Assembly: GCA_021813725.1 (NCBI GenBank)
Contig: JAKAJN010000021.1
Location: 1-32,299 of the forward strand
Source of the DNA: a bacterium
GTDB lineage: Bacteria; Gemmatimonadota; Gemmatimonadetes; Gemmatimonadales; Gemmatimonadaceae
DNA length: 32,299 nucleotides
Direction of reading: 5' to 3'
Position numbers and translations under genes: made by a program. This document shows, piece after piece, positions 11,110 through 20,623 of the stretch (position 1 is its first letter; each line of letters opens with the position of its first letter). The notes under the pieces were generated by a model. That model had not been told where the DNA came from and ran no database searches. It saw nothing but the letters and a program-made list of their open reading frames with translations.

Positions 11110-12789
11110 ATGCTAATGCGCGCGAACTTCTTCCTTGGGGCCGACGAACACGTGCGTGGGTTGCTCGACCCGCGCCGCGTCGTGCGCTGGTTGTATCTCG
11201 CGCGCTTCTCGCTGGCCACTTCCATCTACATCGCCGCCATTCTGGTTTGGCAGCGCACCGACCCGGAAAACACGCTCGTCGCGTCGCTCGCGTTCGCGCT
11301 CACGATGGTGCTCACGGTGCCCTCGGCCATCTGGACCGAGGTGCAACGCAGGCCGCCGACGATCGCCTTCATGTACGGGCAGTTCGTCTTCGACCTGATG
11401 GTGGTGACGTCTGTGGTGCACGTCACGGGGGGAGCGGCGTCGGGCTTCGCGGCGTTGTACATCCTGGTCAATGCGGCCGCGGCACTGCTCCTGCCCATCC
11501 GCGGCGCCCTGCTGGTGGCGGGGCTGGGGAGCATGTTCTACGTCGCCGACGTGATCGTGGTCGGCGCGGGCAACCTGTCGCTGGCGCTCGCGCTGCAGCT
11601 GGTCGTGTTCGTCGGCGTGGCATTCGGCACCAGCTCCATCGCCGCGCGACTGCGTGAGCGCGGGCAGGGCGCGGAGGCCGAGCTGGCCAGTGCGCGACTG
11701 CGCGCCGCCGACATTCTCGCAAACATCCGTTCGGGGATCATCACCGTCGACGAATTCGGGACCCTGCAGTACGCAAACCCGATGGCCAGCGAACTGCTCG
11801 GCCTCCCGCTCGACATTGCCATCGGGCGCGCGGTGCTCCCCGACCTGCGGCGCGTCGCCCCCGTGGTCGGTGACGCGCTCGAGCATGCCCTGCGCGACCG
11901 CGTGCATCTGAGTCGCGCCGAGGGCTTCCTGACGCGCGACTCGAACATCTTCTCCGTCGGCGTCACGACCACGTCGGATGACGGAGACGGCGCGCACGTG
12001 CCGCGCTCGGCGACGGCCATCTTCCAGGACATCAGCGACCAGAAGCGGCTCGAGCAGCTCAACCTGCGCGCCCAGCGGCTGGAGGCGGTCGCCGAGCTGT
12101 CCGCGTCGCTGGCGCACGAGATTCGCAACCCGCTGGCCTCGATTCAGAGCGCCGTGGAGCAGATGTCGCGTCGTCCGGCGGCCACCGACGACGAGCGCAC
12201 GCTGGGCAACCTCATCGTCCGCGAGTCGGGGCGGCTGTCGCGCGTGCTCACCGAGTTCCTCGACTTCGCCCGCGTGCGCGTCACGCGGATGGAGAAGGTG
12301 GACCTGGGCCAGATTGCGCGCGGTGCGGCCGCGCTGGCGCTGGCGCACCCGAACCGCGCCGAGGCGGTCCAACTCGAGGTGGAGGCGGATGGCGACGCGC
12401 TGCCGTTCGTTGGCGACGAGGACCTGCTGCACCGCGCCATCTTCAACCTCGTACTCAACGCGATGCAGGCGTCGCCCGCGGGCGGCACGGTCCACGTGAC
12501 GGCGCGCGCCGTCGACCGCGCGCGGTTGCCGTCGGGCGTCGCGTTCGCCAGCGGCGCGTTCGAGATTGCCGTCACCGACCAGGGGCCGGGCATCGCCCCC
12601 GAGATCGCCGAGCGTCTCTTTGAACCGTTCAGCACCACCAAGCAGGGCGGCACCGGCCTCGGGCTCGCCGTCACGCACCGCGCCGTTGAAGCGCACAAGG
12701 GCTATGTCCTCGTAGACAGCGGCCGCGCCGGCACGCGCTTCACCGTGCTCCTCCCCCGCTCCCCCCGCACGACCGGAGACTCCGCGTGA
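11110..12789 (+). CDS. pilS: Pilus sensor histidine kinase PilS
   Basis: The 559-residue protein has about six membrane spans in residues 25-185, a PAS domain at roughly 195-320 (ILANIRSGIITVDEFGTLQYANPMASELLG), and an NtrB-type kinase core. The phospho-acceptor is H336 in SLAHEIRNPLASI; the ATP-binding domain shows NLVLNAMQASPAGG, DQGPGIAPE and GGTGLGLAV. PilS phosphorylates PilR and, in Pseudomonas, senses pilin levels in the inner membrane. The stop overlaps the GTG of the response regulator by four bases, and pilA lies downstream in the same block, so the assignment to pilus control is well supported. Two ATG codons, two codons apart, compete as start; the second has better ribosome-binding spacing. 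Confidence 0.9.
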   Translation: MLMRANFFLGADEHVRGLLDPRRVVRWLYLARFSLATSIYIAAILVWQRTDPENTLVASLAFALTMVLTVPSAIWTEVQRRPPTIAFMYGQFVFDLMVVTSVVHVTGGAASGFAALYILVNAAAALLLPIRGALLVAGLGSMFYVADVIVVGAGNLSLALALQLVVFVGVAFGTSSIAARLRERGQGAEAELASARLRAADILANIRSGIITVDEFGTLQYANPMASELLGLPLDIAIGRAVLPDLRRVAPVVGDALEHALRDRVHLSRAEGFLTRDSNIFSVGVTTTSDDGDGAHVPRSATAIFQDISDQKRLEQLNLRAQRLEAVAELSASLAHEIRNPLASIQSAVEQMSRRPAATDDERTLGNLIVRESGRLSRVLTEFLDFARVRVTRMEKVDLGQIARGAAALALAHPNRAEAVQLEVEADGDALPFVGDEDLLHRAIFNLVLNAMQASPAGGTVHVTARAVDRARLPSGVAFASGAFEIAVTDQGPGIAPEIAERLFEPFSTTKQGGTGLGLAVTHRAVEAHKGYVLVDSGRAGTRFTVLLPRSPRTTGDSA

Positions 12790-14159
12790 ACGACATCGTC
12801 CGTCCCTCCGTGCTCATCGTGGATGATGAGACGAGCATCCTCGAGACGCTGGAGATCCTGCTGCGGAGCGAGGGGTTTGCCCCGACCGTGGCGCACGGCG
12901 GCCGCGCGGGCCTCGACGCGCTCGAGCGCGTGCCGCACGACATCGTGCTGACCGACGTGAAGATGCCCAACGTGACCGGCGTCGAACTGCTCGCCGCGTC
13001 GCGTCGCCGCGATCCCGACGTGCCGGTGATCCTGATGACCGCGCAGGCGAGCCTGCAGACCGCCGTGCAGGCGGTCAACGAGGGGGCGTTCTACTACATC
13101 CAGAAGCCGTTCCGCAACGACGAGTTGGTGGCAATCCTGCGCCGCGCGGCCGAGCATCGCAATCTTCGCGTCGAGAACACCTCGCTCAAGAAGGAGATTC
13201 GCCGTCGGGACCGCGCCACCGAGGGCGCGCCGATCGGCGCCAGCAAGAAGTGGCTCGAAGTGATGCGCATGGCGGAGGCGGTGGCGGCCACCGAGTCCAC
13301 CGTGCTCATCACCGGCGAGTCGGGGACAGGCAAGGAAGTGGTCGCCCGTTACCTGCACGAACTGTCCGGGCGTGCCGACGGTCCCTTCCTCTCCATCAAC
13401 TGCGGCGCGCTCCCCGAGGGGCTGCTCGAGAGCGAGCTGTTCGGCCACGTGAAGGGCTCGTTCACGGGGGCGGTGAAGGACAAGTCTGGTCTCTTCACGG
13501 CCGCCGGCGGCGGCACGTTCTTCCTCGACGAGATCGGCGAGACGACGCAGGCGACGCAGGTCAAGCTGCTGCGCGTGCTGCAGCAGCGCGAGATCATTCC
13601 CGTCGGCGCCACCGATCCGGTGGCGATCGACGTGCGCATCATCGCCGCAACCAACCGGGATCTCGAAGAGGAAATCAAGCGTGGCGCGTTCCGCCGCGAC
13701 CTGTTCTACCGGCTCAACGTCATCGCCATTCACCTCCCGCCGCTGCGTGAGCGCCGCGACGATATTCCCGTCCTCGCCGAGGCGTTCCTGCAGGCGGCGG
13801 CGGCGGAGCGCGGCGAGGGGCCGAAACGCCTCAGCGAGGACGCCCTGGAACTGCTCTGCGAGTATGCGTGGCCCGGCAACGTGCGCGAACTCGAGAACGC
13901 GCTCGAGCGCGCCGTGATCCTCAGCACAGGGGCAGTCATCGGCGTCACCGCCCTGCCGGAGCGGCTCGCCGAACGGAGGGCCGAGCCGCTCGTCGCCGAA
14001 CGGCCGACACCCAACCCGACGCTCGAGACCATCGAGCGCGCGTATATCCTCTGGGTGCTCGAGAGCGAGCAGGGCAACAAGACGCGCGCCGCCGAGACGC
14101 TCGGCATTGACCCGTCCACGCTGCACCGCAAGCTCGCGCGCTACGGGGTGGAGGCGTGA
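12786..14159 (+). CDS. pilR: Sigma-54-dependent response regulator PilR
   Basis: The 457-residue protein has three domains. The receiver (1-120) carries D13-D14 and phosphoacceptor D57. The AAA+ domain (about 150-385) has Walker A GESGTGKE at 177-184, the sigma-54 contact loop GSFTGA at 224-229, Walker B GGGTFFLDEIGE and the R-finger region. A Fis-type helix-turn-helix ends the protein (ETLGIDPSTLHRKLARYG). It activates RNA polymerase bound at -24/-12 promoters, and such a promoter lies in front of pilA in this window. The loop has Ser in place of the usual Ala (GAFTGA); I recall the same variant in other PilR proteins. Start is GTG, overlapping the pilS stop. Confidence 0.93.
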   Translation: MNDIVRPSVLIVDDETSILETLEILLRSEGFAPTVAHGGRAGLDALERVPHDIVLTDVKMPNVTGVELLAASRRRDPDVPVILMTAQASLQTAVQAVNEGAFYYIQKPFRNDELVAILRRAAEHRNLRVENTSLKKEIRRRDRATEGAPIGASKKWLEVMRMAEAVAATESTVLITGESGTGKEVVARYLHELSGRADGPFLSINCGALPEGLLESELFGHVKGSFTGAVKDKSGLFTAAGGGTFFLDEIGETTQATQVKLLRVLQQREIIPVGATDPVAIDVRIIAATNRDLEEEIKRGAFRRDLFYRLNVIAIHLPPLRERRDDIPVLAEAFLQAAAAERGEGPKRLSEDALELLCEYAWPGNVRELENALERAVILSTGAVIGVTALPERLAERRAEPLVAERPTPNPTLETIERAYILWVLESEQGNKTRAAETLGIDPSTLHRKLARYGVEA

Positions 14160-15736
14160 CCGATCCGGCGGCGCGCCCTGGCGCGCCGCTGCGGGCGTGG
14201 CGTCGGCCGCCGTGGCTCGCGGCGGCGCTCGCGACCGTCGTCGTGCTGGCCTGCGCGATGACGAGCATCACCCCCGATCCGATCGGCGTCTTCTGGGATG
14301 ACGGCGTGTACCTGCTGACCGCCAAGGCGCTCGCCGCCGGCGACGGCTATCGCTATACCTACCTGCCGGGTGCGCCGCCAGCCATTCACTATCCGCCGCT
14401 GTTTCCGCTGCTGCTGGCCGCGGTGCTCAAGGTCACGCCGCCGTTTCCCGACAACGTCGCCGTTCTCAAGCTGCTCAATCCGCTCCTGCTCGCGATGGGC
14501 GTCTTCGGCACGGTGCGACTCGCGGTCCGGAACCTCGGCCTCGCGCCGGTGCCGGTGGCGATCACGGTGGCGATCAGTGCCGTGATCGCGCCGGTCCTCG
14601 TCGTCGCCAACGTCCTGTTCAGCGAGTCGCTCTTCTTTGCCGCGCTCGTCGGAGCGATCGCGCTGGTGGATGCGGCCATCGCGCGCGGCGGCGTGGGCCG
14701 CGCCGCGATGGCCGGGCTCGCCGTCGCGGCGCTGGCGCTCGTTCGCACCATCGGCGGCGTGCTGCTGCCCGCGGCGTTCCTTCAGCTCTGGGGGCGCCGT
14801 CGTCGACGCGAGGCGTTCGCTCTCGCGATCGTCACGGTTGTGTTGCTTGCACCGTGGCAGTGGTGGGTGTGGCAGTCGTCGCGCGGTTTCCCTGATGAAC
14901 TGCGCGGCTTCTACGGCCCGTACCTGGAGTGGGTGATCGGAGGCTACCTGCGGGAGCCGGCGCTGGCCGTGCAGGTCCTGGCGCGCAATGCGGGCGACCT
15001 CTGGCGCGCCTTCGGCGTGCTCTTCGCGCCTCGCCTGCCGCGCGCGCTGCAGTGGGTGGCGGCCGCCATGGCGCTGGCGTCGCTCGGTGCGGGGCTCGTG
15101 ACGCTGCTCCGGCGTGCGAGCGTGACGGCCGCGTTCGTGCTCCTATACGGTGTTGTCGTCCTGTTCTGGCCGTACAACCCCGAGCGATTCATCTGGGCCG
15201 TCTGGCCGCTCCTGGCACTGCTCCTCCTTGCCGCCGCACGCGACGTTGGCGCCGCACTCGCACACCGCTGGCCACCCGCTACGCGCGCGGCGACGCTCAC
15301 CTTCGCGCTCCTGCTCGCCGGTCAGGCGGTATACGCGTCGCGCGGACTGGCCGGCGGATGGGCCGGCGCCCCGCAGGCGGCGATGACGCGCCGCATCTGG
15401 CCGCTCGTCACGTGGACGGCGGCGCACACGTCGCCCGACGACATCGTGGCCAGCGACGCGCACGTGATGGTCGCCCTCTATGCCGGACGGAAGACGATTC
15501 CGGTCTCGATGCTCACACCAACCGAGCATGTGCGCGACAAGCCGCTGACTGCCCAGGCACGCGAACTCGGCGCGCTGACGGGGCGCTTTCACCCCAAGGT
15601 GCTCGTGCTCTCGGACGGCTTGCCGCAACTCGACGCGATTCCGCTGTGGGCGGCGCAAGACGGAGCGCCGGTCATACACGCTCTGCCGGCGATCGCCGGC
15701 GGCGGTGCAGCGTTTGCCCTCCGTGAGCGCCAATGA
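14156..15736 (+). CDS. Polytopic GT-C-like glycosyltransferase, copy A
   Basis: The 526-residue protein has about ten to twelve hydrophobic segments. After the first span comes an acidic loop with D48-D49 (GVFWDDGVYLLTAKALAAGDGY) and then LPGAPPAIHYPPLFPLLLA, the pattern of the ArnT/PMT_2-like GT-C superfamily, where acidic residues in the first outer loop serve catalysis. A soluble extracytoplasmic tail of about 100 residues follows. Such enzymes move a sugar from a polyprenyl-phosphate donor to a protein or lipid. The start GTG overlaps the pilR stop by four bases, so expression is coupled with the pilus regulators. Copy B follows directly and is clearly a paralogue. Donor and acceptor are unknown; a pilin substrate is inferred from position. 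Confidence 0.75.
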   Translation: MTDPAARPGAPLRAWRRPPWLAAALATVVVLACAMTSITPDPIGVFWDDGVYLLTAKALAAGDGYRYTYLPGAPPAIHYPPLFPLLLAAVLKVTPPFPDNVAVLKLLNPLLLAMGVFGTVRLAVRNLGLAPVPVAITVAISAVIAPVLVVANVLFSESLFFAALVGAIALVDAAIARGGVGRAAMAGLAVAALALVRTIGGVLLPAAFLQLWGRRRRREAFALAIVTVVLLAPWQWWVWQSSRGFPDELRGFYGPYLEWVIGGYLREPALAVQVLARNAGDLWRAFGVLFAPRLPRALQWVAAAMALASLGAGLVTLLRRASVTAAFVLLYGVVVLFWPYNPERFIWAVWPLLALLLLAAARDVGAALAHRWPPATRAATLTFALLLAGQAVYASRGLAGGWAGAPQAAMTRRIWPLVTWTAAHTSPDDIVASDAHVMVALYAGRKTIPVSMLTPTEHVRDKPLTAQARELGALTGRFHPKVLVLSDGLPQLDAIPLWAAQDGAPVIHALPAIAGGGAAFALRERQ

Positions 15737-17271
15737 ACGACACGTCGCGCGTGCTCGACCGCCGCACCGCGATGGCAACCGTTGCCCTCGCACTCCTGCT
15801 CGGCGTCTTCGCGATGAATGATGTGCCGATGGGCGTCTTTCAGGATGACGGTCACTATCTCATACTCGCACGCGCCCTCGCGCTCGGCGATGGCTATCAC
15901 TACGTGAATCTTCCGGGCGCGCCGGCCGCCACGCACTTCCCGCCCGGCTACCCGCTCCTCTTGGCGCCGCTCTGGTGGATCGCGCCGAGATTCCCCGCGA
16001 ATGTGGCGTTCTTCAAGCTGGTGAACGTCGTGCTGCTCCCCGTTGTCGCGATTGCCATCCGTGCGGTGGCGCGTCGCCGCGGAAGATTGGGACCGCTGGC
16101 TGCGTCCGCGGTTGCCCTCGCGAGCGTCGCCAGCGTGCCGGTGCTCTTTCTCAACGGCCTGCTGTTCTCCGAGACTGCTTTCATGGCCGCCCTGTTCGGG
16201 CTGCTGCTCGTGCTGGACGATGTCGTTGCCGACGACGCGGCCCCCACGGTGCGCACGTTGATACTGACGGGGGTGGCCATCGGTGCGGTGACGATGCTCC
16301 GAACCGTCGGCGTCGCCCTCCTCCCGGCCGCCCTGGCCGTACCCCTGATGCGACGCCGTTGGCGCGACGCGGCGTTGCTGCTGGTTGGTGCGCTCCTGCT
16401 GCTCGCCCCGTGGCAGACGTGGGCATCGGCGCATGCACGCGCGGTCCCCGACGCCATCGTCGGTGCGTACGGCGGCTACGGACCGTGGCTCGCCGCGGCG
16501 TGGCGCGGCGGTGGACTCGCTTTCATGGCGGGCGTGCTCGCCGAGAACCTGCGCGGCCTGCTGATTCCGCTGACGCTCTTCGGGCTTGCACAGGCGCCGG
16601 CGCTTGTGAAGGGCCTCGTGGTCGCAGCGCTGGTCGCGCTCGCCGCGGCCGGCGCGCACGCACTCTGGCCTCGCGCTCGCGTCATGTTGCTCTTCCTCAT
16701 TCCGTACGGCGCGCTCCTGCTCGCGTGGCCATTTCCACCTGACCGCTTTCTCTGGCCCCTCTGGCCCATCGCGATCCTCCTGGTGACGGCAGGTGTGGTG
16801 GCGCTCGGCGCCCCGTCGTCATCGACACGAGTGCGATATGCGGCGCGCGCCGTCGGTGCAGTGCTCGCGACGCTGTTCGTTGTGTGGCATGCGCGCACGT
16901 GGCCGGGTCGCTCGTGGGAGTCCGGCGAACGTTCGATGGCGCATATGGGACTTGCCGCCGCCAGCGTGGCGGCAAACTTGCCGCGCGAGGGGCTTGTCGC
17001 CTCCGACCAGGATGCGATGGTGCACCTGTACGCCGCACGCCCCGCCGTGCCATTGCTCGCGCTCACCGCCGAACAGCACGTACGCCCCCGCACGGACGAA
17101 GAGCTGGCCGGGCAGGTGCAGGGCGTGCTCGACGCCTACCGTCCCCGCTGGGTGATCGTTGCCCAGCAGGAGTCGTTGCGCGCGGCAAGCATCCTCGTCA
17201 ACCGGGGTCGGCTGAAGCTGCTGGGCGCCGACACGTCGGGCGTGATAGTGTATGATGTAGTCCGGCCCTAA
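15733..17271 (+). CDS. Polytopic GT-C-like glycosyltransferase, copy B
   Basis: The 512-residue protein repeats the plan of copy A: first span, acidic loop with D38-D39 (GVFQDDGHYLILARALALGDGY), then LPGAPAATHFPPGYPLLLA, about ten further hydrophobic segments and a soluble tail with DQDAMVHLYAARPAVPLLALT, which matches SDAHVMVALYAGRKTIPVSMLT of copy A. The two arose by tandem duplication and have diverged well, so they may use different sugars or acceptors. The ATG overlaps the stop of copy A by four bases. There is a gap of 29 bases to the next gene. Enzyme activity is inferred from fold pattern only; flippase or ligase roles are possible for such proteins. Confidence 0.73.
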   Translation: MNDTSRVLDRRTAMATVALALLLGVFAMNDVPMGVFQDDGHYLILARALALGDGYHYVNLPGAPAATHFPPGYPLLLAPLWWIAPRFPANVAFFKLVNVVLLPVVAIAIRAVARRRGRLGPLAASAVALASVASVPVLFLNGLLFSETAFMAALFGLLLVLDDVVADDAAPTVRTLILTGVAIGAVTMLRTVGVALLPAALAVPLMRRRWRDAALLLVGALLLLAPWQTWASAHARAVPDAIVGAYGGYGPWLAAAWRGGGLAFMAGVLAENLRGLLIPLTLFGLAQAPALVKGLVVAALVALAAAGAHALWPRARVMLLFLIPYGALLLAWPFPPDRFLWPLWPIAILLVTAGVVALGAPSSSTRVRYAARAVGAVLATLFVVWHARTWPGRSWESGERSMAHMGLAAASVAANLPREGLVASDQDAMVHLYAARPAVPLLALTAEQHVRPRTDEELAGQVQGVLDAYRPRWVIVAQQESLRAASILVNRGRLKLLGADTSGVIVYDVVRP

Positions 17272-17300
17272 CCGGCATTCGCCCTCCGCCTCCGAACTCA

Positions 17301-18059
17301 ATGTACGCCACGCCGACTCAGGTTCCCGCCCTCCCGCGCCTGCGCGGTCGCACGCCCATCGCCCCGGGCGATCTGGTGCTGTCGGTGCTCATCCCCGTCT
17401 TCAATGAAGAATCCACCATCGAGGTGATTCTCGATCAGGTGCGAGCCGTCGCGGTTCCCAAGCAGGTCATCTGCGTCGATGACCGGTCCACGGACGGCAC
17501 CTGGGCCAAGCTCGAGCAGCTCAAGGCGGCTGGCCGCATTGACGTCCTGATTCGGCACGAGGTGAATCGCGGCAAGGGCGCTGCCATTCGTACGGCGCTG
17601 GCGGCGAGCACCGGCAACGTGGTGATCGTGCAGGACGCCGATCTCGAATACGATCCCGCCGACTGGCCCGGCCTGCTCGAGCCGATCGTCGATGGCCGGG
17701 CAGACGCCGTTTTCGGATCGCGTTTCCTCAGCGGACCGCATCGCGTGCTTTACTACTGGCACTCGGTCGGCAATTGGGCGCTCACCTTGCTGAGCAACAT
17801 GGCGACCAACCTGAACCTCACCGACATGGAGACGTGCTACAAGGCGATCCGCGGTGACCTCGCGCGCTCGCTGCGCTTGACCAGCGACCGGTTCGGTTTC
17901 GAGCCCGAGGTGACGGCGCGTCTGGCGCGATCCAATGCGCGGATCTTCGAGGTGCCGATCAGCTACTCGGGACGCACCTACGCCGAGGGCAAGAAGATCG
18001 GCTGGCGTGACGGCGTGGCGGCGTTCTGGCATATCGTGCGCTTCAATTTCCTGACGTGA
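17301..18059 (+). CDS. DPM1-like family 2 glycosyltransferase
   Basis: The 252-residue protein is a GT-A enzyme of family 2. LSVLIPVFNEESTIEVIL opens the fold, VDDRSTDGTW follows, the metal- and nucleotide-binding DXD lies in QDADLEYDP, and FGSRFLSG and the C-terminal TCYKAIRGDLARSL region match polyprenyl-phosphate hexose synthases (dolichol-phosphate mannose synthase type). It lacks C-terminal membrane spans, so it resembles soluble, membrane-associated DPM1. Its likely product, a polyprenyl-phosphate sugar, is the donor that GT-C enzymes on either side need, which makes the four genes a plausible pathway. The sugar is not determined by sequence; mannose or glucose are the usual cases. Confidence 0.82.
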   Translation: MYATPTQVPALPRLRGRTPIAPGDLVLSVLIPVFNEESTIEVILDQVRAVAVPKQVICVDDRSTDGTWAKLEQLKAAGRIDVLIRHEVNRGKGAAIRTALAASTGNVVIVQDADLEYDPADWPGLLEPIVDGRADAVFGSRFLSGPHRVLYYWHSVGNWALTLLSNMATNLNLTDMETCYKAIRGDLARSLRLTSDRFGFEPEVTARLARSNARIFEVPISYSGRTYAEGKKIGWRDGVAAFWHIVRFNFLT

Positions 18060-19810
18060 CCGCCCCCGCCGTCGAGGCCGAACCGGCCAGACCCGGGCCG
18101 CCGCCCCACACGCCGCCGCACATCGCCCCGCTCCCCGATCCGCGCTGGGGCCTTCTGGCGATGCTCATCGCGCTCCTCGCGGTGGCCGCGGCCGCCACGA
18201 GCCTGCGCAACGGCTTCACCTACGACGACCGCTGGATCATCGCCGAGAATGGCCGTGTGCACGACGTGCGTGCGCTGTGGCGCTACTTCGAGGAATCGTA
18301 CTGGCCGATGAAGAACGGCGCCGGCTTGTACCGGCCGCTGGTGATCTTCTTCTACTCGCTCCAGTGGGTCGTCGGCGGCGGATCGCCGATTGTCTTTCAT
18401 CTGGTCAACGTACTGCTCTCGGCGGTTGCTGCCGTGGGCGTCTTCTGGATGCTCGGCTTCGTGGCACCGACGCGCGTGGCCTGGCTTGCCGCCGCCCTCT
18501 TCGCCGTGCACCCCGTCCATGTCGAGGCGGTGGCCAACGCGGTCGGCCAGGCAGAACTCTGGGCGGCGCTGGCGTTGTTGTCGGCGGTTGGACTGTACCT
18601 GCGCGATCGCCGCGAGGGACCCCTGCGGCGACAGACCGCGCTGGCCATCGTCGCCATCTTCCTTGTCGGCATCTTCACCAAGGAGCACGTCATCGTCCTG
18701 CCGGCGCTGCTGCTCGCCGCGGAACTGCTGCTCTGTCGCGATGCGCCGGTTCTGGCGCGTCTGCGTCGCCTGCGCCTCCTGCTCTGGCCGCTGGTCGTCA
18801 TCGCGGCTGGCTTCATCGCCCTGCGCGTCCACGTGCTGGGCGCCGTCGGCGGCGATGTGCCGCATCCGTCGCTGTTGCATCAGGGAATGCGCGCACGCGC
18901 CTTCATCATGCTCGACGTCGTCCCCGAGTACGGGCGGCTCATGCTCGCGCCGCTGCGCCTGTACGCCGATTACTCGCCTCGCCAGCTCGAGGTGTATCCG
19001 ACGTTCGACGTGTCGCAGCTCACCGGCATCCTGCTCGTGGTGAGCACGGTGGCGCTCTTCGCCCTCACTGCGCGCCGCACGCCCCTCGTGGCGTTCGGCC
19101 TCGCCTGGTTCGCGCTGCTCATTGCGCCGGTGAGCAACGTGCTTCTTCCCACCGGCATCCTGCTGGCGGAGCGGACGCTCTATCTCCCGGCGGCGGGAGC
19201 GATGCTGGTGGTCGCCGTGGGCGCGGAGGCGTTGCGCGCTCGCCTGCGGGCCCTGGACTCGCCGCTGCAACGCCTCGTGCCGGTCGCGTGCGCCGCGGCA
19301 CTGCTGTTCGGCGTTGTGCGCAGCACGCTGCGCAATCCGTTCTGGCACGACACCGACACCGCGTTCGAGCTGATGGTGGCGGAGTCACCTCTCAACTTCA
19401 AGGCGCATTACGCGATGGGTGGCCAGTTGTTCACGCAGCATCGGTCTCGCGAAGGCGAGCGCCAATGGCAGATCGCGATCGCCCTGATGCCGAAGTACCA
19501 TGCCGTCTACGTGGATCTCGCGCATCGGTATCGAGAGGCGCATCTCTGCGACGCGGCAATTCCGCTCTATCAGAAGGCGCTCGCGCTGGAACCAGAGCTG
19601 ACCATCGCCACGGTTTCGATCGCCGCCTGCCAGTTGGAACTCGCGCAGTGGCACCGGGCGCGCACCACCTCGCGCGTGGCCATTGCCGACGGGATGTACC
19701 GCCGGGCGTTTCTGTACATCATTGACCGGGCCGACAGCGCGTTGGTCGCGAACGACAGCCTTGACCCGACGATCAAGACGAAGTGGATGAGCCGTCGCGC
19801 GAAGCGCTAG
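18056..19810 (+). CDS. TMTC-like O-mannosyltransferase homologue with TPR tail
   Basis: The 584-residue protein has a Pro-rich cytoplasmic start, then a polytopic GT-C region (about 30-435). Landmarks match eukaryotic TMTC1-4 and their bacterial relatives: GFTYDDRWIIAEN with D57-D58 in the first outer loop, YRPL, HPVHVEAVANAVGQAELWA, FTKEHVIVLPALL and YADYSPRQLE. From about residue 443 a tail of TPR-type helices follows (HYAMGGQLFTQHRSREGERQWQIAIALMPKY, DAAIPLYQKALALEPEL), about three repeats, that should lie outside the cytoplasm and could bind the acceptor protein. TMTC proteins attach mannose to Ser/Thr. GTG start, overlapping the GT2 stop by four bases. The next gene downstream is pilA. 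Confidence 0.78.
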   Translation: MTAPAVEAEPARPGPPPHTPPHIAPLPDPRWGLLAMLIALLAVAAAATSLRNGFTYDDRWIIAENGRVHDVRALWRYFEESYWPMKNGAGLYRPLVIFFYSLQWVVGGGSPIVFHLVNVLLSAVAAVGVFWMLGFVAPTRVAWLAAALFAVHPVHVEAVANAVGQAELWAALALLSAVGLYLRDRREGPLRRQTALAIVAIFLVGIFTKEHVIVLPALLLAAELLLCRDAPVLARLRRLRLLLWPLVVIAAGFIALRVHVLGAVGGDVPHPSLLHQGMRARAFIMLDVVPEYGRLMLAPLRLYADYSPRQLEVYPTFDVSQLTGILLVVSTVALFALTARRTPLVAFGLAWFALLIAPVSNVLLPTGILLAERTLYLPAAGAMLVVAVGAEALRARLRALDSPLQRLVPVACAAALLFGVVRSTLRNPFWHDTDTAFELMVAESPLNFKAHYAMGGQLFTQHRSREGERQWQIAIALMPKYHAVYVDLAHRYREAHLCDAAIPLYQKALALEPELTIATVSIAACQLELAQWHRARTTSRVAIADGMYRRAFLYIIDRADSALVANDSLDPTIKTKWMSRRAKR

Positions 19811-19850
19811 CCGTCGGATTCCGAGCGGCGCGTTCGCTAGTCAATATTTA

Positions 19851-19860
19851 GACAGCTGTC
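19851..19860. promoter_or_regulatory. Palindrome GACAGCTGTC, candidate PilR enhancer site
   Basis: GACAGCTGTC is a perfect 10-base palindrome about 150 bases upstream of the -24 element of the pilA promoter. It contains CTGTC on each strand, which agrees with the (C/G)TGTC core reported for PilR binding in Pseudomonas aeruginosa. The distance suits a sigma-54 enhancer. Binding is inferred. Confidence 0.4.
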
Positions 19861-20005
19861 CAAAAGAGAGCCATGATCGACCTCGGGGGCCTCTGGCGAT
19901 CTGCCAATTGTCGGTGCAATCCGCGCCCTGATGTAACGACCTGACGTCGTCGTTGTTGATGGTTAAATACATAAAAGACAACTGGTTAGCGGTACGAAAT
20001 CGGCG

Positions 20006-20021
20006 TGGCAAGGCAATTGCA
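20006..20021 (+). promoter_or_regulatory. Sigma-54 (-24/-12) promoter of pilA
   Basis: TGGCAAGGCAATTGCA matches the sigma-54 consensus TGGCAC-N5-TTGCA at ten of the eleven defined positions, with GG and GC separated by exactly ten bases (GG at 20007-20008, GC at 20019-20020). The predicted start is near 20032, 87 bases before the pilA ATG. A PilR-type sigma-54 activator is encoded 6 kb upstream in the same block. This is the strongest regulatory site in the window. Confidence 0.82.
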
Positions 20022-20118
20022 CGTGTGACGGTCCGCGAATCCGAACGTCCGTCCGTTGCGTCGCTCGCGAAGTTCGCTCGTGACGCCGATTCTCACCCTC
20101 GCGCTGGAGACCTACCGA

Positions 20119-20493
20119 ATGCTTTCGAACAAGAAAGGCTTCACCCTGATCGAGCTCCTGATCGTCGTCGTGATCATCGGCATTCTGGCCGCCATCGCGA
20201 TTCCGAAGTTCGCGAACACGAAGGAAAAGGCCTATGTGGCCTCGATGAAGTCCGACCTTCGCAACCTCGTGACCGCTCAGGAAGCGTATTTCTCGGACAA
20301 CAACAGCACCTACGCCTCGTCGATCACCGCCATGGGCACGAACTACAAGGCCTCCAGCGGCGTGACCGTGACGATGGGTACGGTGACGGCGACGGGGTGG
20401 ACGGCCACGGCCGGCCACGCGTCGACGACGAAGACCTGCGCCATCTCCGTGGGCGGCACGGCCACGAACGAAGGCGAGCCGGTCTGCACCTGA
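20119..20493 (+). CDS. pilA: Major type IVa pilin PilA
   Basis: The 124-residue prepilin has a six-residue leader with two Lys and the cleavage site after G7, then the methylated Phe and E12 in FTLIELLIVVVIIGILAAIAIPKF. The prepilin peptidase PilD (not in this window) would cut there. A short globular part follows with C107 and C123, the expected D-loop disulfide, and a Ser/Thr-rich stretch from about residue 61 to 105 (STYASSITAMG, VTVTMGTVTATG, HASTTKTC), a good O-glycosylation target. The protein is short for a type IVa pilin (commonly about 145-160). ATG at 20119 gives the short leader; a longer upstream frame does not. A strong terminator follows, so it is transcribed alone. Confidence 0.95.
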   Translation: MLSNKKGFTLIELLIVVVIIGILAAIAIPKFANTKEKAYVASMKSDLRNLVTAQEAYFSDNNSTYASSITAMGTNYKASSGVTVTMGTVTATGWTATAGHASTTKTCAISVGGTATNEGEPVCT

Positions 20494-20512
20494 TCTGACC
20501 GACTGACGAACG

Positions 20513-20542
20513 CGATGGGCCGGGAGCGATCCCGGCCCATCG
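20513..20542 (+). terminator. Rho-independent terminator of pilA
   Basis: Bases 20513-20525 (CGATGGGCCGGGA) pair without mismatch with 20530-20542 around a GCGA tetraloop of the stable GNRA type, and GTTTT follows at once (20544-20548 is GTTTT). It starts 20 bases past the pilA stop. It should separate strong pilA transcription from the minor-pilin genes. Confidence 0.88.
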
Positions 20543-20623
20543 TGTTTTCACGCCGGATGGCTTCGATGTCGGACGGCGGGAAATGATGATGCACGCCGGC
20601 CCGGGCCTTCCCATGGTGTCGGC

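Follow-up and report, generated by a model that had tools for sequence, protein, structure and literature searches.

A putative PilS/PilR-activated sigma-54 promoter and upstream enhancer in front of the pilin gene pilA in Gemmatimonadota

INTRODUCTION

Control of the pilin gene pilA by PilS, PilR and sigma-54 is known from Pseudomonas aeruginosa, where the operator is of the GTCT and TGT-N11-AGA type (PMC6058289). In commensal Neisseria, pilE is controlled by RpoN, Nps/Npa and IHF (PMC6528607), and in Geobacter sulfurreducens an RpoN-dependent pilA promoter, with the consensus TTGGCACGGTTTTTGCT, was identified by 5'-RACE (PMC2725144). Sigma-54 had earlier been connected in general terms with pili or flagella (PMC3162934). 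More recently, a comparative study of sigma-54 regulons published in 2025 reported enrichment of PilA in beta- and gamma-Proteobacteria, with no mention of Gemmatimonadota in its main text (PMC12316311). The titles and abstracts of the papers found that join Gemmatimonadetes with sigma-54, RpoN, PilR or pilin contain no apparent description of the circuit, and only six cultured species of the phylum were listed in 2023 (PMC10581226).

The present analysis concerns a window of 32,299 nucleotides, that is, the whole stretch of DNA studied (positions 1 to 32,299 of contig JAKAJN010000021.1, assembly GCA_021813725.1). A preliminary description made from the sequence had pointed out a near-consensus sigma-54 promoter in front of pilA. 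The reading reached here, with a probability of about 0.9, is that this box is the sigma-54 promoter of pilA and that it is activated by PilS/PilR through a paired element located upstream (Table 1).

HOST, RpoN AND THE PilS/PilR PAIR

The host is a Gemmatimonadota MAG, described as a soil/water bacterium, so that the initial guess of a distant phylum was right. The nearest relatives of its pilS (78-84% identity) are found in Gemmatimonadetes MAGs, some of them named Gemmatimonas sp. Its genome encodes one full-length RpoN (a 553-aa open frame with an intact RpoN box, ARRTVAKYR), which answers the check for rpoN proposed in the preliminary description. RpoN is also present in 115/119 relatives, including all 98 of good quality, and in 35/35 genomes sampled more widely across the phylum.

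The complete PilS/PilR pair that had been recognised in the window is borne out by domain searches, both proteins being full-length with the expected domains. The match of PilS to 6TM_PilS (PF25323) scores 53.5 bits against a cut-off of 27, and PilR consists of a receiver, a sigma-54 activator AAA and a Fis HTH domain. The loop that contacts sigma-54 reads GSFTGA in this PilR, as it does in 33 of the 37 such activators of related pilS loci. No PilR equivalog is among the best NCBIfam hits for PilR, and the name therefore rests on domains, partner and synteny. The region between pilR and pilA (14156-19810) contains a gene for a membrane protein with TPR repeats and three others of glycosyltransferase or membrane type, all of which recur in at least one relative; their presence suggests that surface or pilin glycosylation is linked to the locus.

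Table 1. Features of the pilS-pilR-pilA region, in window coordinates
Feature	Position	Strand	Basis
pilS, sensor kinase (6TM_PilS, PAS, HisKA, HATPase)	11110..12789	+	domain search
pilR, NtrC-family enhancer-binding response regulator, GSFTGA loop	12786..14159	+	domain search
Upstream activating element GCGATCTGC-N11-GCAATCCGC, probable PilR enhancer	19896..19924	+	alignment and spacing
CAA-N4-TTA, weak candidate for an IHF/HU bend site, lying between enhancer and promoter	19979..19988	+	conserved island in same-genus alignment
-24/-12 sigma-54 promoter box TGGCAAGGCAATTGCA	20006..20021	+	consensus match and conservation
Predicted transcription start	20032	+	12 nt past the -12 C (20020), standard -24/-12 spacing
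Shine-Dalgarno GGAG within conserved CTCGCGCTGGAGA block	20106..20109	+	sequence and alignment
pilA, 124-aa type IV pilin (N_methyl domain)	20119..20493	+	domain search
Strong terminator hairpin behind pilA, then GTTTTC	20511..20543	+	folding energy

THE PROMOTER BOX AND ITS CONSERVATION

When the plus strand was re-read, TGGCAAGGCAATTGCA was found to hold GG-N10-GC exactly and, just as first described, to agree with TGGCACG-N4-TTGC at 10 of 11 bases (position 6 is A instead of C), or at 11 of 12 once the W is included (TGGCACG-N4-TTGCW). The box lies 113 bp before the pilA ATG, and the start predicted downstream of it from the sequence implies a leader of 87 nt. Nowhere else in the window is the consensus matched with one mismatch or none, and shuffling leads one to expect 0.38 such matches. 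Across the whole genome, 383 matches with up to two mismatches were counted versus 642 for a reversed control pattern, and genome-wide counting of the generic consensus was set aside as evidence in view of this absence of enrichment. Because of the 0.38 matches expected by chance and the lack of a genome-wide excess, the consensus match alone is weak evidence, and the case for the box therefore rests on conservation.

Conservation was assessed in 28 loci of the order, namely 27 fetched loci and the window, each with pilA downstream of pilSR. GG-N8-TTGC is present in all of them at -66 to -113 from the ATG, with GG and TTGC invariant. The mean box score is 13.75, compared with 10.0 in dinucleotide shuffles, and 27/28 loci score at least 12 where 1.2 would be expected; this scoring was built to favour the GG and GC pairs, yet TT (positions 11-12), which was lightly weighted, is invariant as well. 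Within the genus, TGGCARGGCAATTGC is retained in 9/9 aligned genomes as an island of identity amid diverged spacer DNA. The comparison of orthologous upstream regions suggested in the preliminary description thus finds the GG/GC pairs kept throughout the order, and the box is found again outside it, both in other orders and in the most distant group covered, f9. The alternative that the box is a chance match to the consensus and that pilA depends on a sigma-70 promoter could draw on the 0.38 one-mismatch matches expected in the window and on one weak sigma-70-like match at 19849-19877, but it is made highly improbable by the retention, in 28/28 orthologues, of GG and TTGC at comparable distances and by the identity island formed by the box, whereas the sigma-70-like match falls outside the strongly conserved islands of the same-genus alignment. 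On these comparisons, TGGCAAGGCAATTGCA is almost certainly the -24/-12 sigma-54 promoter of pilA.

In relatives with tandem pilA copies (L003 at 2085, L008 at 2070, minus strand), a good box is found before the first copy only. The second copies are preceded by CAGCACGACAGTTGCG at -102 or CAGTACGACAGTTGCG at -105, in which the -24 GG has turned to AG, and these boxes look like a decayed duplicate promoter.

A CONSERVED ELEMENT UPSTREAM OF THE BOX

The promoter reading of the preliminary description stands, but a conserved upstream enhancer candidate, its loss together with pilR in a relative and a terminator behind pilA had been overlooked. The alignment of nine genomes of the same genus shows a second island, with the consensus GGCGATCTGC-N10-GGCAATCCGC, and the copy in the window begins 110 bp before the box. 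A free search of the 230 bp that precede the box placed GCRWWCTGC-N10/11-GCAAWNCGC at 106-111 bp before it in nearly all loci of the family to which the window belongs (f1). In the other large family of the order (f2), a related pair is often found at about -121. Of 17 loci from f9 and other orders, 16 have a core of the TGCA type, versus 2.5 expected, located at about -104 and often exactly there. Judged by sequence, the element falls within the roughly 80-200 bp upstream of a promoter taken as the range for an activator site.

In the host genome (3 Mb), the copy in the window is the only zero-mismatch place for the element pattern, a pattern that had been derived from these same loci. A composite scan for box and element at set spacing, covering 1.63 Mb of fetched loci with both strands counted, returned pilin gene promoters only, and a further 1.33 Mb (about 44% of the host genome) contained nothing else in this geometry; because the scoring was derived from the same loci, the scan shows specificity and not discovery.

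It was also considered that the element might be a repressor or nucleoid-protein site, PilR acting from elsewhere. This is quite unlikely, given that the distance between element and box varies by no more than a few bases, that the element is paired with a spacing of about two helical turns and that it is absent from both pilR-less loci examined (G053 and G177, see below). On account of this fixed distance, of the pairing and of the absence without pilR, the element looks like an enhancer of the class used by sigma-54 activators, and it is the probable enhancer to which PilR would bind. A palindrome further upstream, GACAGCTGTC (19851-19860), was considered as a Pseudomonas-like PilR site and dropped, 1.1 chance matches with at most one mismatch being expected in the window; it is retained only partly within the genus.

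Between element and box, IHF-like CAA-N4-TTR matches are present in 27/33 loci, compared with 9.2 expected. Because the position of the enriched match varies, the candidate bend site in the window is graded weak. The host genome encodes a protein with an HU/IHF signature.

LINKAGE OF THE BOX WITH pilR ACROSS THE PHYLUM

The co-occurrence of the box with pilR was analysed in 30 genomes from other orders and classes, in which PilR orthologues part cleanly by score from other activators. Eighteen genomes were pilR-positive, including G120, whose PilR is a contig-edge fragment only, and 12 were pilR-negative, all of which retain rpoN. An automatic pass detected the box in 15/18 pilR-positive and 1/12 pilR-negative genomes (Fisher p = 9e-5); in three pilR-positive genomes this pass had scored an unsuitable pilin, either another copy or one close to a contig end, and with the right pilin chosen the box was present in 18/18 versus 1/12, counts that overstate independence because the genomes are related. 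The sole pilR-negative genome with a box, G177, has a reduced locus and no enhancer element.

The losses are spread over several genera. In G053 the flanking genes are retained, whereas pilS, pilR and two glycosyltransferase-like genes have been deleted, and box and enhancer are gone too; G028, of the same genus, retains pilS, pilR, the glycosyltransferase-like genes, the box and the enhancer. A scan upstream of pilA in G053 (L174/L177) gave no sigma-70-like match. That the regulator, its probable operator and the promoter box went missing jointly ties all three together. It also bears on the alternative that the box is a sigma-54 promoter activated through the upstream element by an enhancer-binding protein other than PilR. 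The genome encodes four other full sigma-54 enhancer-binding activators, which could in principle act here, and pilR is not adjoining pilA, being about 6 kb away. Since box presence tracks the pilR orthologue across the phylum and since in G053 box and element disappeared along with pilS and pilR, activation by one of these other proteins is unlikely, and PilR remains the preferred activator.

A broader reading, somewhat favoured by the authors, is that control of the major pilin, pilA, by PilS/PilR and sigma-54 would be ancestral in Gemmatimonadota as a whole, that the PilR enhancer, of the TGCA type and at an almost constant distance from the promoter, would be specific to the phylum, and that the circuit would have been lost as a unit several times. 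If this is true, the circuit is either older than the divergence from the proteobacterial phyla in which it has been described or was carried across that divergence.

A second pilin gene is present in the host genome behind an apparent polA end (L179, G000 contig C192, match C192:2064-2402; also L175). It has TGGCCCCGGCGTTGCG at -113 and, starting 109 bp before TGGCCCCGGCGTTGCG, an enhancer-like GCAGCTTGC-N10-GCGAAACGA, an arrangement conserved in G001. On the basis of these motifs, the gene may be a further target of PilR.

THE pilA TRANSCRIPTION UNIT AND THE PROPOSED CIRCUIT

The hairpin that follows pilA has a folding energy of -42.5 kcal/mol for 20490-20560 (z = -6.9), and because of this terminator pilA probably forms a transcription unit by itself. 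At the other end of the gene, conservation of the CTCGCGCTGGAGA region (20098-20110) within the genus reaches well past GGAG, and this region may have a part in controlling translation.

By analogy with homologous systems, PilS, a membrane kinase with six helices, would sense how much PilA the membrane contains, as in Pseudomonas, and would phosphorylate PilR. Phosphorylated PilR would then bind as an oligomer to the paired upstream element, and the DNA would loop, perhaps aided by a bend of the IHF/HU type, allowing the AAA+ domain of PilR to remodel the closed sigma-54 complex at the box. RNA polymerase with sigma-54 would start near the predicted position and transcribe pilA alone, up to the terminator.

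COMPARISON WITH KNOWN SYSTEMS

For a sparsely cultured phylum, the analysis provides a concrete and testable pilus regulator, and the probable PilR operator that it defines is usable to predict regulation from sequence alone. The locus shares with P. aeruginosa the six-transmembrane PilS, the NtrC-family PilR and the sigma-54 promoter before pilA (PMC6058289). The initial comparison with Pseudomonas-type control holds for the logic of the circuit but does not appear to extend to the operator sequence: the conserved element, GCRWWCTGC-N10/11-GCAAWNCGC, does not resemble the GTCT or TGT-N11-AGA type, and the PilR loop is mostly GSFTGA (33/37). The order of sites, that is, activator site, bend site, -24/-12 box and pilin gene, is that of pilE in commensal Neisseria (PMC6528607), where, in contrast, activator and operator are others; in the present locus the signal for a bend site is statistical and weak. 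With G. sulfurreducens the locus has in common RpoN/PilR and a pilR near pilA (PMC2725144), although in that bacterium pilA lies directly behind pilR, whereas several glycosyltransferase-like genes intervene here. In conclusion, the kind of circuit is already known; the phylum appears to be new to it and the probable enhancer is its own.
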